A program made the position numbers and the translations under genes. Shown here piece by piece: positions 22,153-59,843 of a stretch of DNA of 64,000 nt. This DNA is from Chitinophagaceae bacterium (GTDB lineage: Bacteria > Bacteroidota > Bacteroidia > Chitinophagales > Chitinophagaceae). Location: contig JAEUVR010000386.1 of the NCBI GenBank assembly GCA_016786785.1, forward strand, positions 1 to 64,000. Direction: 5' to 3'. Position 1 is the stretch's first letter. Every line of letters starts with the position of its first letter. The notes below the pieces were generated by a model. That model did not search any database and was not told where the DNA came from. It saw nothing but the letters and a program-made list of their open reading frames with translations.

Positions 22153-22163
22153 TTTTTAAACAT

Positions 22164-28175: not shown

Positions 28176-28193
28176 AAAAACAAACTCATTCTG

Positions 28194-37777: not shown

Positions 37778-39520
37778 ATGAAATATTCAAACTATCTATA
37801 TCGTTCCGTTTCATTCATCCTGCTGCTCTCTTTTTCGATAGCCTGCAAAAAAAACTTACTGGATAAATTGCCGCAGGACCAGGTTTCCTCCGAGATATTT
37901 TTCCTGCATACCAACGACCTGAAGATTTATATGAACCAGTTCTATAGCGACGCTATCTTTCCTGTATTGTGGGGAATCATTCTGGATAATCCTTATCCTG
38001 GCGGAGCGGATGATTTTAATAGCGACAACCAGATATCCAGCAATGCGGCGGATGACAGGCTGAAAGGGACCCGCACTGTTTATTCGGCTCCGAGCCTTGG
38101 CGGATGGGATTATACGAATATCCGCGCCATTAATTATTTTTTTGATAACTATCGCAAATGCGAGGATGATTTTAACGCTTATAAACAATACGTCGGCGAA
38201 GCGCATTTTTTCAGGGCCTGGCTTTATTTCAGGCTGCTGCAGCAGTTTGGCAATGTTCCGTACATCAGCGTCGTGCTCGGTACGGACTCGCCTGAATTAT
38301 ACGGGCCGCAAACTGCGCGGAACATTGTGGCGGATAATATTCTCGCCGATCTTGATTCGGCCGCTACGTATCTACCCGAAGAAAAAACAGAAGGCGGAAC
38401 GAGACTGGACAAATGGTCGGCGCTGTTGTTGCTGACAAGAGTAGCGCTTTATGAAGGCGCCTGGGAAAAATATCATAATGGAGACGCTTTCGGAGCAAGC
38501 GCTGCTGATCCTGATAAATATTTCAACCAGGTTGTTACTGCCGCTACGGAGATGATGAACTCCGGTAAGCTGGCGCTTTACAATACGGGCAATCCTGCAA
38601 CCGATTATTACGATCTTTTTAAAATGCGCGATTATTCAGATTCTAAAGAAGCGCTGTTATGGAAAAAATTTTCCGTGGCGCTCGATATTACCAATAACAG
38701 GAATTATAGGCTGGAATATCCTTTCGGTAGATCGCTGACCAAAGGGTTGGCAGACGCTTATCTCTGCACTGATGGAAAGCCAATTGCAGTAAGCCCGTTA
38801 TTCGGGGGATTCAATACCCTTTCCGATGAAATGAAAAACAGGGATCCGCGTTTTTACCAGACGATTTTTACGCCCAGCGCCGCCTGGAAGATAACGAATA
38901 TGACGGAGCCATGGCAAGACGCTTATGTCAAGCTGAATTCGTCTTCCGAGTTTTATGCGCCTACAGGATATGTTCTCCGAAAGACCTATGACCCCGATAT
39001 GAACAATCATAGCTTGAATTATGAGGAGACCCCCGCTATACATTTCCGGTATGCAGAAGCGCTGCTGAATTTCGCCGAAGCCAAAGCAGAGTTAGGAACG
39101 ATCACGCAGGCCGATCTTGATCGTTCAATCGGGTTATTGCGAGCGAGAGCAGGAATGCCTGCGTTGAATATGGCTGCTATTGCAACCGATCCTAATTGGG
39201 AGTTTCCGGGCCTGTCCCCATTGTTGAATGAAATTCGCAGGGAAAGGAGGGTCGAGCTTGCCACCGAGGGTTTCCGGTGGCCGGATATAGCGAGATGGGC
39301 TGCCGCTGACGAATTAATTATTGGCAAAAGGCCGAAGGGTTTTAAGGGAGCGCAGATCGCATCTGCATTTTTTCCTGTAGACGCCAATGGCTTTCTGGAT
39401 CCCTTCAGGGACGCGCTCCCCGCAGGTTACGGTTTCAACCCGGCGCGGGACTACCTGGATCCAATCCCGCCAAACGAAATCATTTTAAATCCAAAACTGG
39501 TTCAGAATCCGGGTTGGTAG
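37778..39520 (+). CDS. SusD/RagB-family nutrient-binding lipoprotein 2
   Basis: The 580-residue surface lipoprotein has a signal ending SFSIAC and continues KKNLLDKLPQDQVSSEIFF, the SusD N-terminal motif. TPR-like helices include FRAWLYFRLLQQFGNVPY and FRYAEALLNFAEAKAELG; the C-terminal IRRERRVELATEGFRWPDIA and PIPPNEIILNPKLVQNPGW close the family signature. Lies 11 bp behind SusC 2, exactly as in locus 1. Confidence 0.96.
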   Translation: MKYSNYLYRSVSFILLLSFSIACKKNLLDKLPQDQVSSEIFFLHTNDLKIYMNQFYSDAIFPVLWGIILDNPYPGGADDFNSDNQISSNAADDRLKGTRTVYSAPSLGGWDYTNIRAINYFFDNYRKCEDDFNAYKQYVGEAHFFRAWLYFRLLQQFGNVPYISVVLGTDSPELYGPQTARNIVADNILADLDSAATYLPEEKTEGGTRLDKWSALLLLTRVALYEGAWEKYHNGDAFGASAADPDKYFNQVVTAATEMMNSGKLALYNTGNPATDYYDLFKMRDYSDSKEALLWKKFSVALDITNNRNYRLEYPFGRSLTKGLADAYLCTDGKPIAVSPLFGGFNTLSDEMKNRDPRFYQTIFTPSAAWKITNMTEPWQDAYVKLNSSSEFYAPTGYVLRKTYDPDMNNHSLNYEETPAIHFRYAEALLNFAEAKAELGTITQADLDRSIGLLRARAGMPALNMAAIATDPNWEFPGLSPLLNEIRRERRVELATEGFRWPDIARWAAADELIIGKRPKGFKGAQIASAFFPVDANGFLDPFRDALPAGYGFNPARDYLDPIPPNEIILNPKLVQNPGW

Positions 39521-39587
39521 AGAGGTTGGAAATAATTTTATATCTCTAAAAGCTGATCTTTCATAGTATTCGCATGCTTATTATTTG

Positions 39588-39640
39588 AAATTTGGTACTT
39601 TAACGGTAAATATCCATACCAACGTTCAATTGCCTGCATT
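39588..39640 (+). promoter_or_regulatory. upstream element shared with the ceramidase 1 gene
   Basis: This 53-base segment matches 42924-42976, directly before the ceramidase 1 start, at 42 of 53 positions without gaps. Conserved cores are AAATTTG, TTTAACG, TAAATA and TCAATTG. Because it is non-coding in both places, a common promoter or leader is likely. Between it and the heme protein gene lies a short ATG-led frame of 14 codons at 39653. Confidence 0.6.
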
Positions 39641-39773
39641 CTCCGGGAATATGAATTCCTCGATTACCGTCGATGCATTGCATGAACTATTTTGATTGTT
39701 AAAGCGCCGGCGGTCGACGAAGTATTGCATCAGGAAATGCATTACCGGTATGGCCGGATTGAAAATGATAAGC

Positions 39774-42700
39774 ATGAAAAAACGGATGAATACTTTTTTT
39801 CCCAGCGCCGCATCTGTTTTATTGATGGCGGCGCTGGTTTGCTGTAAGGATACGGGTAGCCCTGTCAACGCAAGAATGGAAGACGTGGCCGGCAGCGAGG
39901 AAGCGCTCAATTTTATGAGGACATTTGACGGGAGAGGGCTGCTCACCGATAGTTCCAGGCCTATGCAACCCCTCGACGCGCTTGCTAAGTTCCGGCATCC
40001 CGACGACCTGGCGCTGGATCTTGTTCTATCGGAACCTAAGATCACCCAACCTGTTTACATCAATTTCGATCATCGCGGCCGGCTATGGGTGGTTCAATAT
40101 AACCAGTATCCTTATCCTAAGGGAATAAAGGTGATGAACATGGATCAACACATGCGCGCGGAATATGATAAGGTTCCCTTACCTCCTCCCGAAGGGACAA
40201 AGGGAGCCGACAAGATCAGCTTTTTTGAAGATACGGACGGCGATGGAAAATTCGATAAGGCCGTCGATGCGATAACCGGACTAAATATCGCTACCAGCGT
40301 GGAATGGGGCCGGGGAAAGATATGGGTATTGGATCCGCCTTACCTGTTGGCGTATCCCGACCCCAATCAGGACGGCATCCCCGATGGCGACCCGGTTGTT
40401 CATCTGAAAGGATTTGGCATCGAAGACACGCATGCAGTAGCCAACAACCTTCGCTGGGGGCCCGACGGATGGTTGTACGGCGCGCAGGGCAGCACCTGCA
40501 CAGCCGATGTGAGTTCTGCTGTTTCGCATAATATCCGCTTTAACGGACAGGCTATCTGGAGATACCATCCTGAGACGCAGATCTTTGAGATCTATGCGGA
40601 AGGAGGGGGAAATACTTTTGATGTTGAAATAGACGATAAGGGCCGTATCTATTCCGGCGACAATGGCTCCAGTCATGGACGATATTATAAACAGGGAGCC
40701 TATCATGTAAGGAACCTGGGCAAGCACGGCGCTTTTACCAATCCGTATGCTTTTGGTTATTTACCGGATATGCAGCATGTGGGCGATACCCGGAGGTTTA
40801 CGCATGCCTTTATCCGGTATGGCGAACAAAATCTTCCGGAAAACTACCGCGACAAGATGATCGCTATTAACCCCCTGCAGCGCTTTGTGCAGCTTAGCGG
40901 CTTCGAGCCCAAGGGGTCCAGCTTCAAAAATGTCGACGAAGGATATATTCTTCAAACCGATGATCGTTGGTTTAGGCCGGTAGATATCGCGGCCGGGCCG
41001 GATGGCGGCGTGTATATTGCCGACTGGTACGATAGCCGTTTATCGCATGTTGATCCCCGTGATACATGGAGCAAGTCTACCGGCCGTATTTATCGGTTAT
41101 ATAATAGGAATAAAAAAGAGCCCGCTCCTAAATTGGATATTTCCGCCTCTACAAATGAAGCGCTTGTGCAATTGCTTTCGCACAAAAGCAGGTGGTTCAG
41201 GCGGCAGGCGCTGCAGCAATTGGGCAATAGAAAAGATTTCTCCGTTATACCCCTGCTTACCCCTTTGCTTGAGAGCGGCAATGTTCAGACTGCATTGGAA
41301 GCGCTATGGGCCATTCATCTCTGCGGCGGCTTTAATGATACGATCGCTATGATGGCGCTATCGCATCAGGACCCCTATGTTCGCATGTGGGCAGTGAGAC
41401 TGCTGGGCGACAACAATAGCGTTTCTCCGTCTATATCTGCCGCGCTTTCAACGCTGGCCCTCTCTGAACCTCATCCTGAGGTAAGAAGTCAGCTTGCGGC
41501 AACGGCTAAACGCTTACCTGCCCAACAGGCGCTGCCTGTTATTAGAAACCTGTTAAAAGGACATGACGACGCCGATGATCCGGATATTCCCCTGCAGATA
41601 TGGTGGGCGCTCGAATCAAAATCGGTATCGGACAGGGAAGGGACGCTAACATTGTTCGCGGACAGGGATATATGGAATAAGCCTATCGTATTAAATACTA
41701 TCCTGGGTCGGTTGATGCAACGATATGCTATAGAGGGCGGCGCTCAGGATTTTACCGCCTGCGCCAGGTTGATAAAGATGGCGCCCTCGGCTAAGCAGGG
41801 TAAACTGTTGGTAGAGGGACTGCAGGAAGGCCTCCGGGGAAAAAGCATTGACGAACTGCCCGCGGATTTATCGGCGGCGTTAAAACCTTTCCAGGCGGGC
41901 GCGGGCGGAGGATCGCTGACGCTCGCATTGCGCCAGGGACAGCGCAAAGCCATAGAGAAAGCGCTGGCGATCATTGGCGATGATCGAGCGGAGACCGGGG
42001 AAAGGCTGGCGTATATCCGCGTGATGGGAGAGGTCAATGAACCGGGATCGATTCCTGTCCTGCTGAAAATAATAGAGAGCGGACAGTCTTCCAATGCCAT
42101 TAAACAGGCGGCTTTAGCGGCTTTGCCGCGTTATGACGATCCAAAGATCGGCGAGCGAACAGTAAAAGCGTATCCTGATAAGCTTAGATCAGATCTTTTG
42201 GTGCGGAATGCTTCCCTGTTATTGCTGGCCAGCAGGCTCTCCTGGGCAAATCAGCTGTTGGATGCCATTGATAGGAAGAAACAGGCTGGCGAAAAATTTG
42301 TTGCGCATACCATCGATAAATCAGACCTGCCGCCCCAGATCGTTAACCAGCTGATCCTTTTAAACGATCCGAAAATAACGGAAACAGCCAACCGATTATG
42401 GCCGGAAATAAGACCGGCGTCTTCAGCGGATAAGACCCGACGTATCGGGCAGGCTTCTTCCGCCCTGAGATCGGGAAGCGGAGACCTGTTAAAAGGAAAA
42501 TTGATATTTAGCAGCCTTTGCGGAAGCTGTCACCGGCTTTTTGGCGAAGGCGGCGCCATCGGCCCCGATCTCACTGGTTACGACCGAACCAATATAAGCG
42601 ACCTGCTGAATCATATTATCGACCCGGGAGCGTATATAAGAGAAGGTTATGCCGCTTATCATGTCAAGACATCAGATAACAGGAGCTTATTAGGAACCAT

Positions 42701-42890
42701 TAAGGAACGCAGCGGATCGACCGTAGTGATCCAGCCGTTCAATGGCGAACAGATCGCGCTTTCTGTAGACCAGGTAACGAGCATGGACCCGCAAAAAACA
42801 TCTATTATGCCTGAACGATTGTTGGATGGCTTATCTGATCAGCAGATCAGGGATATGGTCGCTTATATCATGAAAAACAGCGCCGACTGA
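39774..42890 (+). CDS. PVC-type propeller/HEAT/cytochrome c lipoprotein 1 (TIGR02604 + TIGR02603-like)
   Basis: The 1038-residue protein has a lipoprotein-like signal ending AALVCC. Its N-terminal domain (about 60-450) is a dehydrogenase-like propeller with LVLSEPKITQPVYINFDHRG, EDTDGDGKFDKAVD and DRWFRPVDIAAGPDGGVYIA. HEAT-like repeats follow (about 470-870), then a C-terminal cytochrome c domain with CGSCH (heme Cys916, Cys919, His920), GPDLTGY and the probable distal-Met segment SIMPERLLDG. It is expected to oxidise an external substrate, perhaps a sugar, and pass electrons to heme. Starts at 39750 or 39765 are also in frame; 39774 gives the best signal. Confidence 0.88.
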   Translation: MKKRMNTFFPSAASVLLMAALVCCKDTGSPVNARMEDVAGSEEALNFMRTFDGRGLLTDSSRPMQPLDALAKFRHPDDLALDLVLSEPKITQPVYINFDHRGRLWVVQYNQYPYPKGIKVMNMDQHMRAEYDKVPLPPPEGTKGADKISFFEDTDGDGKFDKAVDAITGLNIATSVEWGRGKIWVLDPPYLLAYPDPNQDGIPDGDPVVHLKGFGIEDTHAVANNLRWGPDGWLYGAQGSTCTADVSSAVSHNIRFNGQAIWRYHPETQIFEIYAEGGGNTFDVEIDDKGRIYSGDNGSSHGRYYKQGAYHVRNLGKHGAFTNPYAFGYLPDMQHVGDTRRFTHAFIRYGEQNLPENYRDKMIAINPLQRFVQLSGFEPKGSSFKNVDEGYILQTDDRWFRPVDIAAGPDGGVYIADWYDSRLSHVDPRDTWSKSTGRIYRLYNRNKKEPAPKLDISASTNEALVQLLSHKSRWFRRQALQQLGNRKDFSVIPLLTPLLESGNVQTALEALWAIHLCGGFNDTIAMMALSHQDPYVRMWAVRLLGDNNSVSPSISAALSTLALSEPHPEVRSQLAATAKRLPAQQALPVIRNLLKGHDDADDPDIPLQIWWALESKSVSDREGTLTLFADRDIWNKPIVLNTILGRLMQRYAIEGGAQDFTACARLIKMAPSAKQGKLLVEGLQEGLRGKSIDELPADLSAALKPFQAGAGGGSLTLALRQGQRKAIEKALAIIGDDRAETGERLAYIRVMGEVNEPGSIPVLLKIIESGQSSNAIKQAALAALPRYDDPKIGERTVKAYPDKLRSDLLVRNASLLLLASRLSWANQLLDAIDRKKQAGEKFVAHTIDKSDLPPQIVNQLILLNDPKITETANRLWPEIRPASSADKTRRIGQASSALRSGSGDLLKGKLIFSSLCGSCHRLFGEGGAIGPDLTGYDRTNISDLLNHIIDPGAYIREGYAAYHVKTSDNRSLLGTIKERSGSTVVIQPFNGEQIALSVDQVTSMDPQKTSIMPERLLDGLSDQQIRDMVAYIMKNSAD

Positions 42891-42923
42891 TCATTCCGAT
42901 AACGTTCCCATACTTATTGCGTA

Positions 42924-42976
42924 AAATTTGCTATTTTAACGTTAAATAGCAACGCTAACGATCAATTGCTTGTATT
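42924..42976 (+). promoter_or_regulatory. upstream element of ceramidase 1 with imperfect palindrome
   Basis: This is the second copy of the 53-base element at 39588-39640. Here it contains an almost perfect palindrome, GCTATTTTAACGTTAAATAGC (one base offset), centred on TAACGTTA. It ends at the ATG of the ceramidase 1 gene, so it may combine an operator with the leader. Confidence 0.55.
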
Positions 42977-44563
42977 ATGGGAGAACATAGATCTCGAAGG
43001 AATTTTATTAAAAATACAGCCGGCGCTGCGTTGGGGTTAAATTATTTTTTTCCGGCGACGGCATGGGGCGAGCCGGCGCCGGTTGCTACTGGGGACGCGA
43101 AAATCCTCCAGCAATGGGAACAAACCCTGAAAGCCGGATTTGCAGAGGCCGATATTACCCCGGATATTGGCATGGAGCAACCCGGCGGTTATGGCAAGGC
43201 TTTTCACCAGAAGCTGCATGATCCCTGCAAGGTCAGGGCGGCGGTATTTAGCGAGGGAGCCAAATGCGTAGCGTTAATTGGCATTGATGCATTGGCCGTG
43301 CCCCGGTCGCTGGTAGAGAAAGCGCGGAAAGGCATTCAGGCTCGTTGCGGCATTCCTCCGGAAGCGGTGATGATCGGCGCTTCTCATTCGCATTCTTCAG
43401 GCCCTACCTCCATGGTACAGCCGGGAGAATATGATCATGCCGATCCCTTTGTGCAATCCCTGGCTTATGAAAAATCTTCCTGCGCCGATCCCAAATACCT
43501 GGAGCGGGTAGAAAAACAATTGGTGGAGGCTGTCTGCGAAGCCTATCAATCAAGTGAGCCATTGAACCTGGGTATTGGCAGGGGAAAGGAAGAAAAAGCA
43601 GCTTTCAACCGCCGCTTTTTCATGAAGAATGGATTGACCTTTACCCATCCCGGCCAATTGAATCCTGATATTATTAAACCGGCAGGTCCCATCGATCCCG
43701 AGGTAGGCGTGATTGGCGCATGGAATAAAGAAGGCAGATGCGTGGGCTGTATCGTTAATTATGCCTGCCATGCGACTACCAATCCGGGGGGGATATCCGC
43801 AAACTGGGTCTACTATATGGAACAAACCATCCGCGGCGCCATGGGGAATGACTGCACGGTGGTTTTTCTCCAGGGCGCCAGCGGAGATGTAACGCAGGTG
43901 GATAACCGCAATCCGCATGCGAACCGGCAGGGAGAAGATTGGGCGCGGTTCGTCGGCGGAAGAGTAGGCGCCGAGGCGGTTAGGGTACTGCTGGACATGC
44001 CTCGCGGCGTCTTAACGCCTATAGACGTTAAGACAAAGACATTATCGATAAAACGCCGGGTTCCTGGGGCTGAGCGGGTGAAGAAAAGTTATGAGTTGGT
44101 TAAGCAGGATCTCGCGAAGGTTGGCGCTACGACATGGACTTTTGCCAAGGAAATTGTATTGCTCGACGCGAAAATTAAAAAGGAACCCGTTGTTCAGGCT
44201 GAAGTGCAGGCCATACAGGTCGGGCCTGCTGTTTTTGTAAGCAATCCCGCCGAATTCTTTTGTCAGCTTGGGCTGGATATTAAGTCGGGAAGCCCCTTCC
44301 CGTTCACCTTTCCTGTTGAATTGGCCAATGACTGCGTGGGTTATGTTCCCACGAAAGAAGCTTTCGACGCCAATGGCGGCGGTTATGAAACAAGGCTTAC
44401 CTCGTATAGCAACCTGGATATACACGCGGGCCCTATGATGGTAGAAGCAGGATTGGCGCTGACGCGTCAAATGAATCCGGGTAAGGCGCCGGAATGGGCA
44501 GGCGCTCCTGCATTTAAAGCCGTTCCCTGGGGATATGGAGATGTTGGGCCGGAACTGCAATGA
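42977..44563 (+). CDS. neutral ceramidase-like protein 1 (N-terminal domain only), Tat-like signal
   Basis: The 528-residue protein starts with SRRNFIKNTAGAA, a good twin-arginine motif, so it is probably exported folded. The ceramidase catalytic domain is recognisable by FAEADITPDIG, GASHSHSSG (two zinc His), NYACHATT (third His), LQGASGDVTQVD (catalytic Ser), SNPAEFF (zinc Glu) and VGYVPTKEAFDANGGGYET (zinc Tyr). The C-terminal Ig-like domain of Pseudomonas and mammalian neutral ceramidases is absent. It should hydrolyse an amide in a lipid or other N-acyl compound; the true substrate is not known. Confidence 0.85.
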   Translation: MGEHRSRRNFIKNTAGAALGLNYFFPATAWGEPAPVATGDAKILQQWEQTLKAGFAEADITPDIGMEQPGGYGKAFHQKLHDPCKVRAAVFSEGAKCVALIGIDALAVPRSLVEKARKGIQARCGIPPEAVMIGASHSHSSGPTSMVQPGEYDHADPFVQSLAYEKSSCADPKYLERVEKQLVEAVCEAYQSSEPLNLGIGRGKEEKAAFNRRFFMKNGLTFTHPGQLNPDIIKPAGPIDPEVGVIGAWNKEGRCVGCIVNYACHATTNPGGISANWVYYMEQTIRGAMGNDCTVVFLQGASGDVTQVDNRNPHANRQGEDWARFVGGRVGAEAVRVLLDMPRGVLTPIDVKTKTLSIKRRVPGAERVKKSYELVKQDLAKVGATTWTFAKEIVLLDAKIKKEPVVQAEVQAIQVGPAVFVSNPAEFFCQLGLDIKSGSPFPFTFPVELANDCVGYVPTKEAFDANGGGYETRLTSYSNLDIHAGPMMVEAGLALTRQMNPGKAPEWAGAPAFKAVPWGYGDVGPELQ

Positions 44564-44565
44564 GG

Positions 44566-44705
44566 TTGAACATATTCAATGGCCGGAGAAAGACAGGACC
44601 GGGGCCTTTAAATCAGTGTTGCATTGACATTGAACGAATTCAATGATCGGTGAAGCGATAGGATTGGGCTTCTAAGACAACTTGTAATGACGTGAACGAA
44701 TTCTA
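44566..44705 (+). repeat. degenerate 62-64-bp tandem repeat with TTGAA-N4-TTCAA palindromes
   Basis: Two imperfect copies start at 44566 and 44630, and a partial third at 44692. Each begins with a palindrome or its remnant: TTGAACATATTCAA (44566-44579), TTGAACGAATTCAA (44630-44643), GTGAACGAATTCTA (44692-44705). Between these, stretches such as CGGnGAAnnnAnAGGAnnGGG recur. The array fills the gap between ceramidase genes 1 and 2 and ends 17 bp before the second start, so it may be a regulator-binding array. Confidence 0.75.
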
Positions 44706-44722
44706 TAATAAAAAAGACAGAT

Positions 44723-46204
44723 ATGGTTGTGACAGATCGGCTTTATGATAACGGCAGAATGGCTTTTTGTTTCCTGCGCTTGCTTGCTGGTTGTTGCCTG
44801 TTCCTTTGCTTTTCTTCAGGCGCATTTGCTCAACGCCCTGTTTTCCGGGCGGGCGCCGCTGCGGTTAACATCACTCCTAACCTGGGTCAGGGGATAGTGG
44901 GCAATTTCGGCATTCCCCCGCCCGCCGCTTATGTCCATGACGAACTGCATGCCCGCTGCCTTGCGCTGGACGACGGGACCACGCGGTTGATATTTGTGAT
45001 CGTCGACAATGTTGGCATCGACCGCTTGGTGTTTGACGAGGCAAAAAGATTGATCTATAAAGAAACTTTTATTCCCAGGGAACAGGTGTTGCTGGCCGCG
45101 AACCATACGCATTCCGCCGTTAGCGCCGGAGGGGAAGGCGAGAAAAGAAGGGGATGGAACGAGCGCGCGGAACTGGATGCATACCAGACTTTTGTTGCTC
45201 GACGTATATCCGATGGCGTTAGGATGGCGATCCATAATCTTGAACCTGCCCGGATCGGGTGGGGCGTGGGTCGCGTACCGCAGCACCTGTTCAACCGTCG
45301 CTGGAAGATGAAGTCGCCCGTTCTTAACCCCTTTGGCGAAAAAGACCGGGTAAGAATGAACCCGGGCCGTCTCAACCCCGATCTTCAGGAACCAGCCGGA
45401 CCCACAGACCCCGGCGTTTCATTTATTTCCGTTCAGTCACGCGAAGGTCGCCCTTTGGCGCTGCTCGCCAATTATTCGTTGCATTATGTGGGCGGCGTAC
45501 CCGACAATCATATCTCAGGCGATTATTTTGCCGTCTTTGCTGACCGGATACAGGAGCTGTTAAAAGCCGACCGGCAGGATCCTCCTTTTGTAGGCATCAT
45601 GTCTAACGGTACTTCCGGCGATGTGAACAATATCAATTTCGCTGCGCCCGCAGAACAGCATAGACCCTATGAGAAAATGCGCATCGTAGCCAATGATGTT
45701 GCGCAGGAAGTACTTAGGGTATATAAAACTATTCAGCATAAGGACTGGGTAAAACTGAGCGTTGCGCAGTCAGAACTGCCTTTGCAGGTAAGAAAACCTG
45801 ACAAACAGATGCTTGCGCGCGCCGAAAAAATACTTTCCCGCCCCGATACGGTTAAGCCGGCGCATCCGCTGGAAGCGACTTATGCTCAAAGGATCATACA
45901 GATCCAGGAAGAATGGCCCGATCAGGTAAAGATCATCCTGCAGGCTTTCCGTATCGGCGAGCTTGGCATTGCCGCTATTCCGTTTGAGGTATTTACAGAA
46001 ACGGGATTGGAATTAAAAGCCAAGATCCCGTTCAAGACTTCTTTTACCATTGAACTCGCTAATGGCAGTTATGGATACCTGCCCACTCCCGAACAGCATC
46101 AACTGGGCGGCTATGAAACCTGGCTCGGAACCAACAGGGTGGAAAAAGGAGCTACGCAAAAGATCGTCGCAGAACTGCTTAAATTGTTTGATACAATAAA
46201 ATAA
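44723..46204 (+). CDS. neutral ceramidase-like protein 2
   Basis: The 493-residue protein has a Sec signal peptide (FLRLLAGCCLFLCFSSGAFA). It carries the ceramidase N-terminal domain with AAVNITPNLG, ANHTHSAVSAGG (zinc His pair), NYSLHYVGG (third His), NGTSGDVNNINF (catalytic Ser), IPFEVFTETG (zinc Glu) and SYGYLPTPEQHQLGGYET (zinc Tyr). It is far closer to ceramidase 3 than to ceramidase 1, pointing to a tandem duplication. No C-terminal Ig-like domain. The ATG at 44723 is used; the ATG at 44759, giving a shorter signal, is a real alternative. Confidence 0.86.
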   Translation: MVVTDRLYDNGRMAFCFLRLLAGCCLFLCFSSGAFAQRPVFRAGAAAVNITPNLGQGIVGNFGIPPPAAYVHDELHARCLALDDGTTRLIFVIVDNVGIDRLVFDEAKRLIYKETFIPREQVLLAANHTHSAVSAGGEGEKRRGWNERAELDAYQTFVARRISDGVRMAIHNLEPARIGWGVGRVPQHLFNRRWKMKSPVLNPFGEKDRVRMNPGRLNPDLQEPAGPTDPGVSFISVQSREGRPLALLANYSLHYVGGVPDNHISGDYFAVFADRIQELLKADRQDPPFVGIMSNGTSGDVNNINFAAPAEQHRPYEKMRIVANDVAQEVLRVYKTIQHKDWVKLSVAQSELPLQVRKPDKQMLARAEKILSRPDTVKPAHPLEATYAQRIIQIQEEWPDQVKIILQAFRIGELGIAAIPFEVFTETGLELKAKIPFKTSFTIELANGSYGYLPTPEQHQLGGYETWLGTNRVEKGATQKIVAELLKLFDTIK

Positions 46205-46222
46205 CCGCTTGTTGAAAGGCAG

Positions 46223-46252
46223 TAGTTATAAGAACGGAATATAGTTATAAGA
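46223..46252 (+). repeat. 11-bp direct repeat upstream of ceramidase 3
   Basis: TAGTTATAAGA occurs at 46223-46233 and again at 46242-46252, 19 bp start to start, just ahead of the ceramidase 3 gene at 46272. Spacing near two helical turns is what a dimeric activator or repressor would need. Confidence 0.5.
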
Positions 46253-46271
46253 CCTAAACCTGCTATGTATA

Positions 46272-47720
46272 ATGAGAAAAATCAGATTGTTCCTCGCTTG
46301 TTTTATTTTTGCGCCTGCCGGTATTCTTTCCCTGCGCGCGCAGAACGCGGGCGCTAAGGCGTTCCGCGCAGGCGCCGCTACCAGCAATATCACTCCGAAG
46401 ATCGGCTCGTCTATTAATGGAAACCCGAAAGACGGCATTGTCAGGCATATTCATGATGAAACGCATGCCCGCGGTATCGTGCTTGACGATGGAAATACGC
46501 GGCTGGCCATCGTTGTGTCTGATCTTTGTATGGTCTATCGGGAAACATTAGATGAAGCTAAACGCATAGCGAATAACATAACGGGCATCCCTGTGGAAAA
46601 CATGATGATGTCGGCTACCCATACGCATTCTGCAGGCACGGCCTGCTCGGTATTTCAAAGCGATCCGGATAAGGAATACCTTCGGTTTCTTGCGCAACGC
46701 ATTGCGGACGCGGTGATAAGAGCCAATAATAACCTGGCGCCGGCGCGCATAGGGTGGGCCGTAGGAAGAGAACCCACGCAGGTGTTTAATCGCCGTTGGA
46801 GGATGAAGCCGGGAAAGCCTTTAACGAATCCATTTGGCGGAACAGACCAGGTGAAGATGAATCCGGGTATAGGCAATCCCGATTTGCTGGAGCCTGCAGG
46901 ACCTACCGATCCGGGCTTGCCCATTGTTTCCCTACAAACGCCGGATGGCCGCCCCATTGCCTTGCTGGCTAATTATTCCCTGCATTATGTAGGCGGAACG
47001 GGCCCGGGGGAAATATCGGCAGACTACTATGGCATGTTTGCCCGGCGCATGCAACAGTTGCTGCAGGCGGATCATGAGGACCCTTCTTTTGTAGCGATTA
47101 TGTCTAATGGAACCAGCGGCAATATCAACAATATCAATTTTGGAGGAACGCCTCTTCCCGCCATCCTCCCTTATACGCGCATGCGGCAGGTCGCAAATAT
47201 CGTGGCGGCGGAAGCATATAAGACTTATCAGAATATTCATTACCAGGATTGGATTTCCCTGAGCGCGCTGCAGAAAGAAATTACCCTGGGCGTAAGGCTT
47301 CCCGCCAAAGAAGAAGTTGCGCGCGCAAAAGCGATTATAGCCAAAGCAGACGGTCCGGTGATGAATACCATGGAAGAAATTTATGCGCGGGAAACCGTCC
47401 TCATCAATGAATACCCTAAAGAGGTTTCCGTGATCCTGCAGGCTTTTCGTTTGGGCGATCTCGCCATAGCCGCGGCTCCCTGCGAGATATTTGTTGAGAT
47501 CGGGCTCGATTTTAAAGAAAGATCGCCTTTTAAACCGGCTTTCATGATCTCCTTGGCCAATGGCTACAATGGCTATCTACCGACTCCCGAGCATCATAAG
47601 CTCGGCGGTTATGAAACCTGGCGGGCCCGTTCCAGCTACCTGGAGACAAACGCTTCAACAAAGATCATGGAAACCATTTTTGGTTTGATGCAGAAGCTTA
47701 AAAATGAGCAGCCAAAATAG
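46272..47720 (+). CDS. neutral ceramidase-like protein 3, variant active site
   Basis: The 482-residue protein has a Sec signal peptide (MRKIRLFLACFIFAPAGILS). Domain motifs are ATSNITPKIG, ATHTHSAGTACS (zinc His pair), NYSLHYVGG (third His), NGTSGNINNINF, APCEIFVEIG (zinc Glu) and YNGYLPTPEHHKLGGYET (zinc Tyr). The catalytic Ser is kept, but the Asp that follows it in homologues (SGD) is Asn here (SGN), so activity may be altered. It is clearly a sister of ceramidase 2. No C-terminal Ig-like domain. Confidence 0.86.
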   Translation: MRKIRLFLACFIFAPAGILSLRAQNAGAKAFRAGAATSNITPKIGSSINGNPKDGIVRHIHDETHARGIVLDDGNTRLAIVVSDLCMVYRETLDEAKRIANNITGIPVENMMMSATHTHSAGTACSVFQSDPDKEYLRFLAQRIADAVIRANNNLAPARIGWAVGREPTQVFNRRWRMKPGKPLTNPFGGTDQVKMNPGIGNPDLLEPAGPTDPGLPIVSLQTPDGRPIALLANYSLHYVGGTGPGEISADYYGMFARRMQQLLQADHEDPSFVAIMSNGTSGNINNINFGGTPLPAILPYTRMRQVANIVAAEAYKTYQNIHYQDWISLSALQKEITLGVRLPAKEEVARAKAIIAKADGPVMNTMEEIYARETVLINEYPKEVSVILQAFRLGDLAIAAAPCEIFVEIGLDFKERSPFKPAFMISLANGYNGYLPTPEHHKLGGYETWRARSSYLETNASTKIMETIFGLMQKLKNEQPK

Positions 47721-47807
47721 AAACCGGGAGACGGAAATATTTTACTGCATGTATATGTAAGATCCATCAACCTTTTACCAACAAGTATAAGTTTTGAAAA
47801 AAAATAT

Positions 47808-50801
47808 ATGGAAATGAGACGCACCAGCGAAAAAAGAAGGAAGATCCAACAACCTGGCTTTATTGTTTATTGTATCGCTGTATTGATTGTAACCGGCTGT
47901 GCAAGTGAAAATGATAAGCGCCTGCAAAAGGCAATGGACAGTTTTCAACTCGAGCCGGGCTTGCGTATTGAACTGGCTGCTTCCGAGCCCATGGTCATAG
48001 ATCCTGTAGCGCTGGCATTTGACGAAGACAGGAATATGTATGTCGTGGAAGATCGCGGTTATCCGGATTCTTCGAATGGGGGAACGCCTACTACGCTAGG
48101 ACGTATTGCCTTCCTGAAAGATACTGACGGGGATGGTAAATATGATGATCGTGCGGAGTTTGTAACAGGCCTTACCTATCCTAATGGCGTTCTTCCCTGG
48201 CGCGGAGGGATCTTTGTTACCTGCGCGCCCGATATATACTATTTTAAGGATACTACGGGAGACGGCGTTGCGGATATCCGAAAAGTCGTTCTTACCGGTT
48301 TCAGCGCGGATAAGACCGCGCAGATACGCGTGAGCACTCCCATACTGGGATTAGATGGATGGGTGTATATATCAGGTGGATTAAATAGCGGCAAAGTTAC
48401 TTCCCCGGAACACCCAGAGCGCGCTGCCGTCGTTTATGCTTCCGCAGATGGCCGGTTTCATCCCGAGACCCTGGAGTTCCAGGTTACCGGCGGCGTCAGC
48501 CAATACGGTCTCAGTTTCGACAGTTATGGCCGTCGTTTCGGATGCTCCAATCGCCATCCTATCCAGCAAATTGTTCTTGAACCGCGTAGCCTCAGCCGTA
48601 ACCCGCATCTTTTATTTTCACAGACCATCCAGAATGTTTCCGCCTCGGAGGCTGAAGCAAAAGTATTCCCCATCAGCGGCGCGATCACCTCTGCCGATTT
48701 TATTCCCAAGCTGATCGGTCGTTCGCATACCGGAACCTTTACCTCGGCATGCGGCCTGCTGGTATTTAATGGCGCTGCGCTTACTCCTGAACACCGGGGC
48801 AATGCCTTTATCTGCGAGCCTGCGCAGAATTTGGTCCAGCGCCAGATCATGCATCCGAAGGGCGTCAGTTTTTCTTCCTCCCTGCCTTATGAGGAACGGG
48901 AGTTTTTATCCTCTACCGATGAATGGTTCCGTCCGGTATTCCTCCAACACGGGCCTGAGGGCGCGCTCTATATTGCAGATATGTACCGTAAGGTGATTGA
49001 CCATCCTTCTTATGTTCCGGAAGAAGCCAGGGCCTTATTGGATTTTGAAAGCGGCAAAACAGATGGAAGGATATACCGGATCGTCAGGGAGGATTTTCGT
49101 AGAAACAATTCCGTCCCGCCCCTGCTGAGTTCGAAAGCATCTCCGCAACAGCTTCTTAAAGCGCTGGAGTCGCCGGAAGAATGGGAGCGGGAGACGGCGC
49201 AGCGGCTGTTGCTTCAGGATAAAATATCTTCATTGATACCTGAATTAAAACGATGCGTTGCGCAATCTGCTTTACCCGAAACCCGCGTTCGGGCATTGTG
49301 GACGCTTCGCTCCTATGGAGCGCTGGACGATAAAGATATTATCCTGGCATTGGCAGATAAAGAAAGCGGCGTACGCGAGCAGGCGGCATTGCTGGCGGAG
49401 GAATTGATCAAACAATATCCCCGGCTAATAGTTGCCGTAATAGACGCCGCCGCTGATACGGCGGCCCGGGTCCGGTTTAACAGCGCGCTGACGCTGGGCG
49501 CTATAGATGAACCTTCGGTTATTGAGGCGATGGCGGAAGTTGCCGCGCGGGATGGCGCGGACCGTTGGGTAAGAGCCGCTGTGCTGAGCGGTATTGGATC
49601 GCGCCTTCCGGCATTCTTACATGCTTTCCAGGCGCAAAAAGCGCCGGATCCGCAGGCGTTTGCGTCGGTCATGCAGGACCTGGGGCGCTTGTTCGGCAAT
49701 GCCGCTTCGTTAGCCGAATGCAGGCTGCTTTTAAAAAATACGATCCAGGATAATGGCGCCTTAAACGTTGATCATTCCTGGAAAATATATACTATTCTCG
49801 GATTAGCGGAAGGTTTAAGCGGTCGCGCTGAAATGAAAGCCGGTCAGCATAACCTCTTGTACGAGCTGTTGGGTGGAAATGCCGCTGCGAAAGAAACAAG
49901 ATCCCTGAATGTCTTTATGGAGCACGCGTCCAGGGTCGCGCAGGATGAAAAAAGCGTTGCAGGGCTGCGCGTGGTCGCCGCTAACCTTCTTGGCTATAGC
50001 GATTTTGAAAAAGCCGGCAACCTGCTGAAGAACCTGCTGGGCGCCCGCAACCCGCCCGAAGTGCAGCTGGCGGCTGTTTCGTCCCTGGCGCGTATGGGCG
50101 ATGCGAGAGGCGGAAAGCTGCTGATGGCAAAAGAAGCATGGTCTAATTATACGCCAAGCGTCAGGTCGGCGGTGATCGCAGCCATGGTTTCCAAACCGGC
50201 ATTTATACAATTGCTTTTTTCTGCCATACAGGATGGCGCGATCACTGCTCCCGAAATTTCGGCTATGGATAGGGAAAGATTGATCAACAACAAGAACCCT
50301 GGCATCAGCGAGCAGGCAAAATCCTTGTTTAAGGAACTGGAAGGCGGCGGAAGAATGCAGGTATATGAAAGTTATCGCGATATCCTGGTGAAGCCCGACG
50401 ATGCGGTTAAGGGCAAAGCCGTTTTTAAAAGAGTATGTTCCGTTTGTCATGCTCATAGCGGCGAAGGAGGGAAGGTCGGGCCGGATCTGACAGGAATTAA
50501 CAATCAACCCGCAGATGCGCTGTTGTTGCATATACTCGTGCCGAATTATGAAGTATTGCCGGCCTACCAGGCGATTTCGGTACAGACCAGAGACGGACGA
50601 ACGTTGACAGGCTGGCTGGTGGCGGAAACGGAAAACAGCATGACCTTCCGCACTTCATTCGGGGCCGACGAGTCGATACTCAGAACGAACATTAGTTCGC
50701 TGACCAATTCGGGATTATCGTTGATGCCCGACGGATTGGAAAAAAGCATGACAAAAGAAGAGCTGGCAAACCTGATCGCATTTTTAAAAGCCGGTCGCTG
50801 A
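47808..50801 (+). CDS. PVC-type propeller/HEAT/cytochrome c lipoprotein 2 (TIGR02604 + TIGR02603-like)
   Basis: The 997-residue lipoprotein has a signal ending VLIVTGC. Its propeller domain (about 45-410) includes ALAFDEDRNMYVVEDRGYP, the acidic loop KDTDGDGKYDDRAEFVTGL and EWFRPVFLQHGPEGALYIADMY. HEAT-like repeats span about 430-850. The C-terminal cytochrome c domain has CSVCH (Cys877, Cys880, His881), GPDLTG and the probable distal-Met segment SLMPDGLEKSM. It mirrors the protein encoded at 39774 on the other side of the three ceramidase genes and is expected to feed electrons from an external substrate to the respiratory chain or a soluble carrier. Confidence 0.88.
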   Translation: MEMRRTSEKRRKIQQPGFIVYCIAVLIVTGCASENDKRLQKAMDSFQLEPGLRIELAASEPMVIDPVALAFDEDRNMYVVEDRGYPDSSNGGTPTTLGRIAFLKDTDGDGKYDDRAEFVTGLTYPNGVLPWRGGIFVTCAPDIYYFKDTTGDGVADIRKVVLTGFSADKTAQIRVSTPILGLDGWVYISGGLNSGKVTSPEHPERAAVVYASADGRFHPETLEFQVTGGVSQYGLSFDSYGRRFGCSNRHPIQQIVLEPRSLSRNPHLLFSQTIQNVSASEAEAKVFPISGAITSADFIPKLIGRSHTGTFTSACGLLVFNGAALTPEHRGNAFICEPAQNLVQRQIMHPKGVSFSSSLPYEEREFLSSTDEWFRPVFLQHGPEGALYIADMYRKVIDHPSYVPEEARALLDFESGKTDGRIYRIVREDFRRNNSVPPLLSSKASPQQLLKALESPEEWERETAQRLLLQDKISSLIPELKRCVAQSALPETRVRALWTLRSYGALDDKDIILALADKESGVREQAALLAEELIKQYPRLIVAVIDAAADTAARVRFNSALTLGAIDEPSVIEAMAEVAARDGADRWVRAAVLSGIGSRLPAFLHAFQAQKAPDPQAFASVMQDLGRLFGNAASLAECRLLLKNTIQDNGALNVDHSWKIYTILGLAEGLSGRAEMKAGQHNLLYELLGGNAAAKETRSLNVFMEHASRVAQDEKSVAGLRVVAANLLGYSDFEKAGNLLKNLLGARNPPEVQLAAVSSLARMGDARGGKLLMAKEAWSNYTPSVRSAVIAAMVSKPAFIQLLFSAIQDGAITAPEISAMDRERLINNKNPGISEQAKSLFKELEGGGRMQVYESYRDILVKPDDAVKGKAVFKRVCSVCHAHSGEGGKVGPDLTGINNQPADALLLHILVPNYEVLPAYQAISVQTRDGRTLTGWLVAETENSMTFRTSFGADESILRTNISSLTNSGLSLMPDGLEKSMTKEELANLIAFLKAGR

Positions 50802-51033
50802 CAGACGTTTTTTCGATAGTCCGGATTAACCGGTTTTATGCCGGGGATATTCTTAACATATAGTCAGGGCAGGTGCCAGGCGGGAATGAAGCCAATCTTT
50901 ATGGCTGGTATAATTGCGTTGTTAATATAGCAGGATATGTTTTATTCGCCGCATAAGATTGTTGAACGCTTCAGGCTTTGTCAGTATATTGCAGGGGTGC
51001 CCTAATATAAACTGAATGTAAAAAGATAGGATA
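50802..51033. other. 232-bp gap before DUF1080 gene 2
   Basis: No hairpin terminator with a T run was found after the heme protein gene. A plausible Bacteroidota promoter sits near the right end (see 50962-50992), so the DUF1080 and Gfo/Idh pair that follows may be a separate transcription unit. Confidence 0.4.
50962..50992 (+). promoter_or_regulatory. putative Bacteroidota promoter for DUF1080 gene 2
   Basis: TTG at 50962-50964 and TATATTGC at 50985-50992 are 20 bp apart, close to the Bacteroidota -33/-7 pattern (TTG, then TAnnTTTG). The start of transcription would fall near 51000, giving a leader of about 35 nt before the ATG at 51034. Confidence 0.4.
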
Positions 51034-51864
51034 ATGCATAAATTAAAAATTGTTTCTCTTGTATTGGTTTTGGCGCTATTATCAGGAGGCGCGTGTTTTG
51101 CTCAGGCCCCTGCAGGCGGGAACACGGGAAGCGCCGTTGCAAAAAGCAAACCGATCAAACTGTTTAATGGACGCAACTTAGACGGATGGTATACCTTCTT
51201 ACAACATCGCGGGCGCGATACCGATCCTAAAAAAGTATTCACGGTAAAAAATAAAATGATCCGGGTATCGGGAGAAGAGTATGGCTGTATTACCACTAAT
51301 GAAGAGTATGAAAATTATATACTCAGGGCGGAATTTAAATGGGGCGCCAAAACTTTTCCGCCGCGTGTCGACAGGGCCAGAGACAACGGGATCCTTGTGC
51401 ATTCCCAGGGAGAAGACGGAGGTTATTCCGGCATCTGGATGCATTCCATTGAATGCCAGATCATCGAAGGCGGAACAGGAGATATCCTGGTAGTAGGCGA
51501 TAAAACGGACAGGTTTTCCGCAACCAGTCCAACTGCTCCTGAGAAACACAAAGGCGCTTATGTATATCAGCCCGGCGGCCAGCTGACCACGATCAACGGC
51601 GGGCGTATCAACTGGTGGGGCCGCGATCCTGAATGGGAAGATGCGCTGAACTTCAGGGGCAGGCAGGATGTGGAAAAGCCCGTAGGGCATTGGAACAAAA
51701 TAGAATGTATAGCCGAAGGAGACGTTCTCAGCATATTCCTGAACGGCGTGCTGGTCAATAAAGCCATCAATGTAAAACCTTCCAGGGGGCGGATCCAGAT
51801 ACAGTCGGAGGGGGCCGAGATCTTTTTCCGGCGCGTAACGCTTCAAAAGCTCGATCCGAAATAA
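51034..51864 (+). CDS. DUF1080 (3-keto-glycoside lyase/hydrolase-like) protein 2
   Basis: The 276-residue secreted protein has a signal peptide (IVSLVLVLALLSGGACFA). Domain marks: KLFNGRNLDGWYTFL at the N-terminus, EYENYILRAEFKWG, a GYSGIWMHSIECQIIEGGTG strand and a closing EGAEIFFRRVTLQKL. It is a distant paralogue of the DUF1080 protein at 3621, without the repeat segment shared by that gene. It precedes a Gfo/Idh/MocA gene by 80 bp, so oxidation at C3 followed by cleavage of the glycosidic bond is the likely chemistry; the order of steps is from family knowledge. Confidence 0.9.
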   Translation: MHKLKIVSLVLVLALLSGGACFAQAPAGGNTGSAVAKSKPIKLFNGRNLDGWYTFLQHRGRDTDPKKVFTVKNKMIRVSGEEYGCITTNEEYENYILRAEFKWGAKTFPPRVDRARDNGILVHSQGEDGGYSGIWMHSIECQIIEGGTGDILVVGDKTDRFSATSPTAPEKHKGAYVYQPGGQLTTINGGRINWWGRDPEWEDALNFRGRQDVEKPVGHWNKIECIAEGDVLSIFLNGVLVNKAINVKPSRGRIQIQSEGAEIFFRRVTLQKLDPK

Positions 51865-51944
51865 TGACCCAATAACTTTTATGCAGAGCCTTTGTTTGTT
51901 CTGTTTAATTATATTTTAGTATTTAACGTTTAAAATTTTGTGTT

Positions 51945-53027
51945 ATGCCTGATCAGATTAAACCTTTACGAATATTGGTGGTAGGATGCGGAAATATGGG
52001 AGCCTCGCATGCTTTTGCTTATCATACAGAAGACGGATTTGAAATTTGCGGGTTAGTATCCACGGGGAAAACGAAGGAAGCGTTAAATAAAAAACTGGGA
52101 GGAGGATATCCCCTGTTTGATGATTTTGAAAAAGCGCTTGAAGCGACGAATCCCGACGCCGTGTGCATTTCCACCTATCCGGATACGCATGAGCGATATG
52201 CTATCGCTTCTCTCGAAAAAGGCTGTCATGTATTTATTGAGAAGCCGCTCGCCGATTCTGTCGAAGGCGCTGAACGCGTGGCCGCAGCAGCCAAAAAAGC
52301 CAATAAAAAACTGGTCGTAGGCTATATTTTACGCCACCATCCTTCATGGGAGCGTTTTGTAGAGCTTTCACAGACGCTGGGAAAGCCATTGGCGATACGG
52401 ATGAACCTCAATCAGCAAAGCGATGGAAGCATGTGGACCTTACACCGGAACCTGATGAAGAGCCTGAGTCCGATCGTGGATTGCGGCGTACATTATATTG
52501 ACGTAATGTGCCAGATGACGCGCTCAAAACCGGTATTGGTTAGCGCTATTGGCGCCAGGCTTACCGAGGAGATACCTGCAGGCAATTATAATTATGGGCA
52601 ATTACAGATCCGGTTCGAGGATGGTTCGGTTGGATGGTACGAGGCAGGCTGGGGCCCCATGGTGAGCGAGACGGCATTTTTTGTGAAAGATGTCATAGGA
52701 CCCAAAGGGTCCGTGTCGATAGTAGCCAAAGGAGCGGGCGGCGAGGGAAAATCGAGTTCAATTGAATCGCATACCAAAACAGAGTCCCTGCGCGTACATC
52801 ATGCCGATCTGGACAAAAACGAAAAATTTCTTAAAGAGGACGATTGGATAAACCTCGAAGACGAGCCCAATCACCAGGAGTTGTGCAACCGGGAGCAACG
52901 CTATTTTCTAAAAGCCATTCGTGAAAATATTGATCTCACGGATCATGCGCAGGATGCCGTTAACAGCTTGCGGATTGCTTTTGCCTGCGATGAATCGGTT
53001 CGCACAGGCCGGATGGTCGCCTTATAG
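51945..53027 (+). CDS. Gfo/Idh/MocA family oxidoreductase, cytosolic
   Basis: The 360-residue protein has no signal, unlike the other two family members here. It shows the Rossmann motif VVGCGNMGASH at the start, VFIEKPLADS (the EKP hallmark) near residue 105 and the second domain with VDCGVHYIDVMCQMT, whose His is the usual catalytic-site residue of the family. It is an NAD(P)-linked oxidoreductase of a sugar or keto-sugar, probably working inside the cell on products made by DUF1080 protein 2. Followed by a perfect hairpin terminator. Confidence 0.9.
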   Translation: MPDQIKPLRILVVGCGNMGASHAFAYHTEDGFEICGLVSTGKTKEALNKKLGGGYPLFDDFEKALEATNPDAVCISTYPDTHERYAIASLEKGCHVFIEKPLADSVEGAERVAAAAKKANKKLVVGYILRHHPSWERFVELSQTLGKPLAIRMNLNQQSDGSMWTLHRNLMKSLSPIVDCGVHYIDVMCQMTRSKPVLVSAIGARLTEEIPAGNYNYGQLQIRFEDGSVGWYEAGWGPMVSETAFFVKDVIGPKGSVSIVAKGAGGEGKSSSIESHTKTESLRVHHADLDKNEKFLKEDDWINLEDEPNHQELCNREQRYFLKAIRENIDLTDHAQDAVNSLRIAFACDESVRTGRMVAL

Positions 53028-53196: not shown

Positions 53197-54333
53197 TTAT
53201 ATCTTAATAAACACTTTTTTCCGGTAGAGAAAATACAGCATCAGCCATGCCAGTATCAGTCCCCCGAGCGCATCGAATGCGGGATGTAAACGCTCTGGGA
53301 GGGGCGCATACAGACCTGAAAAAAGTCGTTTGGCGCTATATGCAAAGGGGATGAAACGATAGGCAAGATAGATGGTCAGCGAATTCATGCCGATAACATG
53401 AAAGAAGAATGCCCATTTTTTTATCTTCCATACGTCAATGACAACATAAAACAAAGCAAGGGCGAGAAAAGCCATTCCCCCGGTCAGCGAGATAAATGAA
53501 CTTGACCAGAGATGTTTGTTGATAGGGAAATGCAATCCCCATACCAGACCCAGCACAACGCCTGCCGCTCCCGCGAGGACCAGCGCCTGGATCTTTTTCC
53601 CTTCCTTTTTATTTGATCGCAGGATATCGCCGGCCATTGATCCCAACACAGTGAGGCAAAGCGCCGGCAATTGGGTGATCAGCCCGTTTTCATCGTAGGT
53701 TTTTTGATTTAGGCGGCCCGGCAGAAAATGGCGATCTATCCAGCCTACCAGGTTTCCCTCGAAAGAAAGATCGCCTGCGCCGTATCCCGGCACGGGGATA
53801 AGAAACAATGCCGCATAATAAAAGATAAGAATGCCGCCAACCCACCAAAGGCGTTTAAAGAACGAGAAATTCAGGTATAGCACGGTAGCGGCAAATCCGG
53901 CAATACCAATTCTACCCAGCACGCTGGCTACGCGTATGTTAGAAGGCTCGAAGAAAGTAATAGGCGTATTCTTATCAATAATGCCAAGGATGATCAATAA
54001 AAGCATTCTTCGGAAAGCCTTTTTGTACAGGTCTGTTTTACTCAGGCCCATGGCCAATCCCTTATTCAGTGAAAAAGGAATGGAAACGCCGGCGATAAAA
54101 AGGAACAAGGGGAAGATAAAATCATAAAAAGTAAAGCCATTCCACGCAGGATGTTTTAGCTGTTGCGCCAGCGTATCTATCCAACCCCAGCCTGTATTGC
54201 CTTCAAGAAGTTCAATAAAAGCGCCTCCGCCGGAGATGAGTATCATATCAAATCCCCTAAGGGCGTCTATGGAAAACAGGCGGTTTGATTTTTGCGCAAT
54301 CGGTTGTGCGATGGGTTGTGGAGATGTGCTCAT
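53197..54333 (-). CDS. DUF5009 / heparan-alpha-glucosaminide acetyltransferase-like membrane protein
   Basis: The 378-residue inner-membrane protein has roughly ten helices. The N-terminus DALRGFDMILISGGG, followed by HPAWNGFTFYDFIFPLFLFIAGVSIPFS, is the signature of the HGSNAT/YeiB-like family (DUF5009), thought to transfer an acetyl group from cytosolic acetyl-CoA across the membrane to a sugar amine outside. The usual central histidine could be that in WNGF or AWLMLY neighbours and is not certain. It may modify amino sugars released by the surrounding enzymes. Monocistronic. Confidence 0.85.
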   Translation of the reverse strand: MSTSPQPIAQPIAQKSNRLFSIDALRGFDMILISGGGAFIELLEGNTGWGWIDTLAQQLKHPAWNGFTFYDFIFPLFLFIAGVSIPFSLNKGLAMGLSKTDLYKKAFRRMLLLIILGIIDKNTPITFFEPSNIRVASVLGRIGIAGFAATVLYLNFSFFKRLWWVGGILIFYYAALFLIPVPGYGAGDLSFEGNLVGWIDRHFLPGRLNQKTYDENGLITQLPALCLTVLGSMAGDILRSNKKEGKKIQALVLAGAAGVVLGLVWGLHFPINKHLWSSSFISLTGGMAFLALALFYVVIDVWKIKKWAFFFHVIGMNSLTIYLAYRFIPFAYSAKRLFSGLYAPLPERLHPAFDALGGLILAWLMLYFLYRKKVFIKI

Positions 54334-59762: not shown

Positions 59763-59843
59763 ATTTTTGCGCTCTACCTGCCCTCTTTTTGTTTTCATGT
59801 GTCTATAATAGACAGGGGTATCCCTGCTATTAAATTAAAGTAA

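Follow-up and report, generated by a model that had tools for sequence, protein, structure and literature searches.

In the LacABC pathway of Caulobacter and Pedobacter, lactose is oxidised in the periplasm by a membrane-bound dehydrogenase, and the proposed 3-keto-lactose hydrolase is a DUF1080 protein (PMC9007349). The 3-keto-disaccharide pathway BT2157-BT2159 of Bacteroides thetaiotaomicron (PMC11300592, PMC9007349) includes BT2157, a 3-ketotrehalose hydrolase (PMC9007349). We present a gene set related to both, found in a Chitinophagaceae bacterium (contig JAEUVR010000386.1, positions 1 to 64,000; this whole stretch of 64,000 nucleotides is the window). Between 39696 and 53027, all on the + strand, lie the genes of two heme proteins, three ceramidase-fold proteins, a DUF1080 protein and a Gfo/Idh protein, in the order heme1, CerA, CerB, CerC, heme2, DUF1080, Gfo/Idh, behind an extracytoplasmic function (ECF) sigma factor with its FecR protein and a SusC/SusD pair. 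These genes form a genuine, conserved module. Its function we read, with as much doubt as confidence, as a respiratory pathway, linked to SusCD, that breaks down an acylated, probably N-acylated, saccharide or glycoside through a 3-keto-glycoside. Family searches find the genes that a first-pass annotation of this DNA had named, on one strand and in their places; they are given below, with a convergent neighbour on the other strand as the last entry.

32045-32674, + strand: ECF sigma factor (Sigma70_r2/r4_2)
32758-34005, + strand: FecR-type anti-sigma factor (PF04773, PF16344)
34230-37766, + strand: SusC-type TonB-dependent transporter (TIGR04056, 859.9 bits; plug and barrel)
37778-39520, + strand: SusD-type surface lipoprotein (PF07980, 165 bits)
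39696-42890, + strand: heme1, a propeller-HEAT-cytochrome c lipoprotein (DUF7133, 212 bits; HEAT_2; TIGR02603, 109.8 bits)
42977-44563, + strand: CerA, a putative ceramidase-fold zinc enzyme with a twin-arginine-like signal, RRNFIK (homology to CerB and CerC)
44723-46204, + strand: CerB, a putative secreted ceramidase-fold zinc enzyme (PF04734, 50.2 bits; AlphaFold2 model; match to 2zws)
46272-47720, + strand: CerC, a putative secreted ceramidase-fold zinc enzyme (PF04734, 40.7 bits; fused orthologues)
47808-50801, + strand: heme2, a propeller-HEAT-cytochrome c lipoprotein (DUF7133, 400.7 bits; TIGR02603, 118.8 bits; synteny)
51034-51864, + strand: secreted protein of the DUF1080 / 3-keto-disaccharide hydrolase family (PF06439, 102.7 bits)
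51945-53027, + strand: Gfo/Idh/MocA oxidoreductase, probably cytoplasmic (PF01408, 95.3 bits)
53197-54333, - strand: DUF5009, an HGSNAT/NagX-like membrane acetyltransferase, convergent neighbour (PF16401, 32.3 bits)

With LacABC, the locus shares a secreted DUF1080 protein, a respiratory-type redox partner and, in two related loci, the GMC/Gluconate_2-dh3 genes. It differs in that the cytochrome is a large propeller-HEAT-cytochrome lipoprotein, the window's locus has no GMC gene, and ceramidase-fold zinc enzymes join the set, with a DUF1080 fusion of one of them in some genera. With BT2157-BT2159, it has in common DUF1080 and Gfo/Idh genes in an organism with SusCD systems, whereas its Gfo/Idh protein scores far under the BT2158/BT2159 cut-offs and lacks a recognisable signal peptide, and the heme and ceramidase-fold proteins are extra. 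Pathways of this type are known. No description of one that includes ceramidase-fold enzymes and a heme protein of this kind was found in the literature searched, which covered few subscription journals, and this absence only weakly supports novelty.

With CerB as the sole query, a scan of genome contigs returned 79 loci. A gene for a propeller-HEAT-cytochrome protein lies within 1 kb in 18 of the 28 Bacteroidota loci, always on the same strand and in 11 of the 14 genus labels, and 23 of the 28 loci have at least two ceramidase-like genes. By chance, about 0.02 heme genes per locus are expected, taking the heme-gene density of relatives with CerB-like genes (1.7 per Mb), and the observed share exceeds this by far, counted by locus or by genus label; the labels were taken from record titles, and the binomial figure for the co-occurrence ignores shared ancestry. 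A neighbourhood survey had been set beforehand as the test that could refute a link between these families, and the link between ceramidase-like and heme genes came through it. In Parapedobacter indicus (L038), the order CerA-CerB-CerC-heme2-DUF1080 is kept. Heme2 is the conserved heme partner, while heme1 was seen beside ceramidase-like genes only in the window's genus. Of the 10 Bacteroidota loci without a heme gene within 1 kb, four (L026, L027, L028 and L045) are located terminally on short contigs, and a fifth, L034, overlaps with L033.

The link to DUF1080 is also physical. Cyclobacterium lianum (L042), Cyclobacterium sp. SYSU L10401 (L048) and a Cyclobacteriaceae metagenome-assembled genome (L041) encode CerC::DUF1080 fusions of 762-763 residues, with 64-67% identity to the window's CerC in one domain and 62-65% to its DUF1080 protein in the other, and each of the three fusion genes adjoins heme2. 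Counting these three, DUF1080 is present in 8 of the 18 heme-linked loci, so that its proposed association with the other genes stood as well; it is also present in G032 and G218. Synteny and the CerC::DUF1080 fusions rule out a chance neighbourhood. The window's DUF1080 protein is well inside its family (the 102.7 bits compare with a curated PF06439 cut-off of 26.8), and by family it would cleave 3-keto-glycosides. The Gfo/Idh protein is outside the BT2158/BT2159 families, with 31.1 bits against a cut-off of 750 for NF058561 and 34.3 against 650 for NF058563. It had been taken for part of the conserved module, which did not hold, as outside the window's genus the same gene was not seen at this position. 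At the window's left end (2281-4355), a second DUF1080 gene (3531-4355) is found beside a gene (2281-3579) that clusters with Gfo/Idh proteins.

The first-pass annotation had proposed a combined oxidative, glycosidic and acyl-cleaving role for the set. Co-occurrence and fusions leave the link between oxidation, 3-keto-glycosides and ceramidase-like proteins as the best reading, and the ceramide or glycosphingolipid part of the proposal falls away. We infer both the substrate and every reaction, as follows. Regulated by ECF/FecR, SusC/SusD would take the compound up into the periplasm, as the families of these proteins suggest. The secreted CerA, CerB and CerC, judged by fold and zinc site, would be zinc amidohydrolases that remove acyl groups. 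The C3 hydroxyl of the sugar would be oxidised by a dehydrogenase, probably of the LacA/LacC type (GMC/Gluconate_2-dh3) and encoded elsewhere in the genome, whose electrons would pass to the cytochrome domain of heme2, perhaps of heme1 too, and on to respiration. DUF1080 would split the 3-keto-glycoside, and in the cytoplasm the Gfo/Idh protein may act on the keto-sugar.

On the simplest reading of the redox genes, heme2 would serve as the cytochrome of a LacA/LacC-type dehydrogenase. The GMC and Gluconate_2-dh3 pair is found in two related loci, L025 and L111, and three of the five GMC genes of the own genome are beside DUF7133 proteins. Inspection by eye of the 76 DUF7133 genes listed for relatives gives about 7 with a GMC gene at a distance of at most 5 kb. 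All of these belong to the window's genus, and this adjacency is a lead rather than proof. More tentatively, and with some doubt prevailing, we suggest that the ceramidase-fold enzymes constitute a new branch of 3-keto-glycoside breakdown, acting as a unit with DUF1080 on 3-keto sugars or on their N-acyl groups, and that the propeller-HEAT-cytochrome lipoprotein is a new respiratory electron acceptor.

Several observations weigh against such a pathway. None of the window genes at 39696-53027 is a GMC or Gluconate_2-dh3 gene, and the GMC search gave no match on contig C433. The operon has no glycoside hydrolase that would define a substrate, and 10 of the 18 heme-linked loci show no DUF1080 gene within the stretch that was sequenced. 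In other phyla, none of 46 loci has a heme gene within 1 kb of the CerB relative, and the CerB relatives of Planctomycetota and Verrucomicrobiota mostly stand alone. Conversely, some close heme2 relatives (G001:C82, G001:C107, G032:C3, G227 and G309) have no ceramidase-like neighbour. Finally, the nucleophilic Ser of ceramidase is replaced by Asn or Thr, which leaves the amidase activity of CerA, CerB and CerC not assured.

Of the three ceramidase-fold proteins, CerB and CerC match PF04734 (50.2 and 40.7 bits), and CerA (18.5 bits, below the cut-off of 32.1) is assigned by homology to the other two, not by Pfam. A tree of 99 proteins puts CerA, CerB and CerC in three separate groups, each with Daejeonella/Pedobacter-type and Parapedobacter members, which we interpret as three old orthologous groups. 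The AlphaFold2 model of CerB (predicted local distance difference test score, pLDDT, 94) aligns with the neutral ceramidase of Pseudomonas aeruginosa (2zws; Z score 41.4, root mean square deviation (rmsd) 3.6, 402 residues aligned) and with the human enzyme (4wgk; Z 38.3, rmsd 3.3, 405 aligned), and its match list holds no other close structure. The residues H97, H204, E411 and Y448 of 2zws, which we take to be the zinc ligands (chain numbering), correspond to H128, H254, E422 and Y452 of CerB and are kept in CerA and CerC too. H99, R160 and Y460, presumably further catalytic or binding residues of ceramidase, have equivalents amongst the ceramidase-fold proteins. The Ser that we take to be the nucleophile (S250 of the chain, S274 of the full-length protein) is Asn302 in CerB, Asn in CerC and Thr in CerA; at this position, 39 of 48 homologues have Asn and one has Ser. 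The likeness to neutral ceramidase (2zws/2zxc, 4wgk) covers fold, zinc ligands and the H99/R160/Y460 equivalents, and the differences are the lost nucleophile, the missing C-terminal domain (the alignment and CerB both stop at residue 487 of the 2zws chain), an identity of about 16% and other gene neighbours. CerA, CerB and CerC are thus ceramidase-fold metallohydrolase candidates and not ceramidases. In Dyadobacter and Cyclobacterium (L036:6931-13028 and L055:451-3521), there are tandem ceramidase-fold paralogues in which Pro replaces the second zinc His, still beside a heme gene.

The alternative that survives best concerns the chemistry of these three proteins. Their substrate may be the 3-keto sugar itself, which they would convert as zinc-dependent lyases or hydratases one step before or after DUF1080, with no N-acyl bond involved. 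The direct fusion of CerC to DUF1080 speaks for it, as does the exchange of the nucleophilic Ser for Asn in most homologues while the zinc ligands are retained, and metal-dependent eliminases of another fold, such as AtOGE, do such chemistry (PMC10628242). However, the retained H99, R160 and Y460 equivalents fit hydrolysis, acyl-chemistry genes occur near several loci, and three parallel paralogues are easier explained by several acyl or amide specificities. We consider a lyase or hydratase role unlikely.

The neighbours of related loci bear on the substrate. They include AP_endonuc_2, PfkB, DeoC aldolase, PIG-L, polysaccharide deacetylase, CBM6, sulfatase and DUF5009 genes. DUF5009 has been grouped with HGSNAT (PMC12423673) and recalls the NagX acetyltransferase (PMC9007349); in L023, one homologue and a ceramidase-like gene overlap by 4 bp, and in L057 another is 50 bp behind such a gene. 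The convergent DUF5009 gene at 53197-54333 is a possible partner of the operon. PIG-L, polysaccharide deacetylase and DMFA2_C genes are found in other related loci. Because these acyl-chemistry genes (DUF5009, PIG-L, polysaccharide deacetylase, DMFA2_C) are near related loci, an N-acylated sugar is plausible, though short of certain. The Daejeonella-type loci L030, L031, L034 and L040 add genes for LutABC lactate oxidation, a PfkB kinase, a DeoC/LacD aldolase and Gfo/Idh proteins, additions that might hint at a 6-deoxy sugar yielding lactaldehyde or lactate.

The own genome also has relatives of the ceramidase-fold proteins that lack a signal peptide. They are found in operons with a DeoC aldolase, a PfkB kinase and an aminotransferase (L010), with an M19 dipeptidase, an aminotransferase and 3HCDH (L011), and with gluconolactonase and MR/MLE genes (L012), all neighbours that handle small hydrophilic compounds. 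Such contexts raise the alternative that the compound degraded by the module is not a sugar but a small amide, N-acyl amino-acid-like or other, with the redox and DUF1080 proteins in a non-glycosidic step. Other family members are indeed found with aminotransferase III, M19 dipeptidase, RidA, D-serine-dehydratase-like and 3HCDH genes, and the Daejeonella loci add a DMFA2_C amidase-like gene. On the other hand, SusC/SusD, DUF1080, AP_endonuc_2, PfkB/aldolase and CBM6 in such loci indicate a carbohydrate, and L025 joins amino-type genes with the GMC/Gluconate_2-dh3 pair. A small amide as the substrate is in our judgement improbable.

The heme proteins could also be thought to oxidise the sugar themselves. 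Heme1 and heme2 each consist of a DUF7133/TIGR02604 propeller, a HEAT_2 region and a TIGR02603 cytochrome c domain with a single CxxCH, and both TIGR domains are above cut-off (TIGR02604/TIGR02603 bits of 220.6/109.8 for heme1 and 268/118.8 for heme2). The CxxCH residues C877, C880 and H881 and the axial M973 are conserved; the heme2 cytochrome domain is similar to Kustd1711, and M973 aligns with the distal ligand M292 of that protein. In the heme2 model (overall pLDDT 81), residues 49-430 form a quinoprotein propeller fold that aligns with 3a9g, a pyrroloquinoline quinone (PQQ)-dependent sugar dehydrogenase (Z 26.0, rmsd 3.2, 288 aligned), and with 6i1q of AA12 (Z 25.3, rmsd 3.4, 291 aligned). 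What the locus shares with the PQQ-dependent aldose sugar dehydrogenases and AA12 (3a9g, 2g8s, 6i1q) is this six-bladed propeller at the N-terminus of the heme protein; what differs is that heme2 lacks most PQQ and catalytic residues and that HEAT and cytochrome c domains are added. Profile alignment, with E. coli YliI and the genome's own GSDH-family proteins as references, and not superposition of structures was used to map the cofactor residues of heme1 and heme2, and the PQQ-binding positions are those we take from knowledge of the soluble glucose dehydrogenase family. At YliI positions H147, R214, N215, Q217 and R341, heme2 has I, V, S, Y and W, and R343 alone is kept (one of six mapped positions), leaving it without the catalytic His and the Arg/Asn/Gln set of the PQQ sugar dehydrogenases; in that motif, 15 of 25 homologues carry Gln instead of His. 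Heme1 keeps more, with a His one position off the catalytic base and the Asn equivalent. In G218:C76 (L111:7878-10892), a heme gene is split by one in-frame TAA into two open reading frames, by a sequencing error or as a decaying gene.

With most PQQ and catalytic residues replaced, heme2 is disfavoured as a PQQ enzyme, and the earlier idea that the conserved heme protein is a sugar oxidase loses its footing. That the heme proteins are themselves PQQ-dependent sugar dehydrogenases draws on the best matches of the propeller, on the partial residues of heme1 and on L104, a GSDH-family protein of the own genome that retains the residues aligned with YliI; the residues of heme2 and the homologues stand against it. 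A pqqC search of the own genome found nothing, but its positive control likewise gave no match, so that this negative carries no weight. We regard such a role of the heme proteins as quite improbable. The weakest alternative, ceramide or glycosphingolipid degradation by three true ceramidases, has in its favour the neutral ceramidase as the only close solved fold and the retained zinc site, but we give it almost no credence because the Ser nucleophile is replaced, the C-terminal domain is absent and the neighbours, also those of the signal-less relatives, are sugar and small-molecule or amino-compound enzymes, to which are added the scores for the neutral-ceramidase equivalog NF041649 (24.4 bits for CerC against a cut-off of 1200, no match for CerA and CerB) and neighbourhoods in which, as far as examined, no sphingoid-base or lipid gene was recognised.

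Returning to the layout of the locus, the SusC/SusD pair adjoins the catabolic genes, as in a SusCD polysaccharide utilisation locus. Intergenic gaps from SusD onward are 67-232 bp, and a terminator scan found 25 candidates where 16.8 are expected; the arrangement suggests that the genes from SusD onward are likely co-transcribed. The start of heme1 is more probably at 39774 or 39786 than at 39696. The genome is a 4.5 Mb draft with an estimated contamination of 6.1%, but an assembly artefact is unlikely, because contig C81 of the same-genus genome G003 shows an identical gene order. On contig C237, the own genome has a second such locus with SusC/SusD-like genes, a heme gene, three ceramidase-like genes and a CBM6 protein. 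The stretches before heme1 (39580-39642) and before CerA (42915-42976) seem to be related along some 60 bp, both containing TTTAACGNTAAATA without mismatch, and are possibly a duplicated promoter or operator. We do not argue further for TTTAACGNTAAATA as a shared operator: it has these two exact copies, but the window has only 8 matches with at most two mismatches against 3.1 expected, and the genome-wide signal is not clear.

An adjoining ECF/FecR/SusCD cluster (16674-31908) has a double DLH esterase, a beta-helix protein, a carbon-nitrogen hydrolase, a cupredoxin with a weak DUF6797 match and a DUF7133 propeller without HEAT or cytochrome matches. Its cupredoxin-like piece recurs at the upstream end of the Daejeonella-type ceramidase-fold loci L026, L029, L031 and L034. 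A third ECF/FecR/SusC set starts at 59181-64000, which brings the number of such regulated transport units in the 64 kb to three.

The genes, folds, zinc and heme ligand residues, the conserved co-occurrence and the CerC::DUF1080 fusion are what the analysis shows, and they touch a field, oxidative glycan breakdown via 3-keto intermediates, that is recent and thinly mapped. The PF04734-like genes of Bacteroidota and of Planctomycetota/Verrucomicrobiota are often taken for ceramidases, and no role has been assigned to the TIGR02604 heme proteins. The natural CerC::DUF1080 fusion is a ready object for assays. If the module is what we propose, PF04734-like and TIGR02604 proteins would gain a concrete role, one testable in the cultured Parapedobacter indicus, Cyclobacterium, Dyadobacter and Daejeonella.

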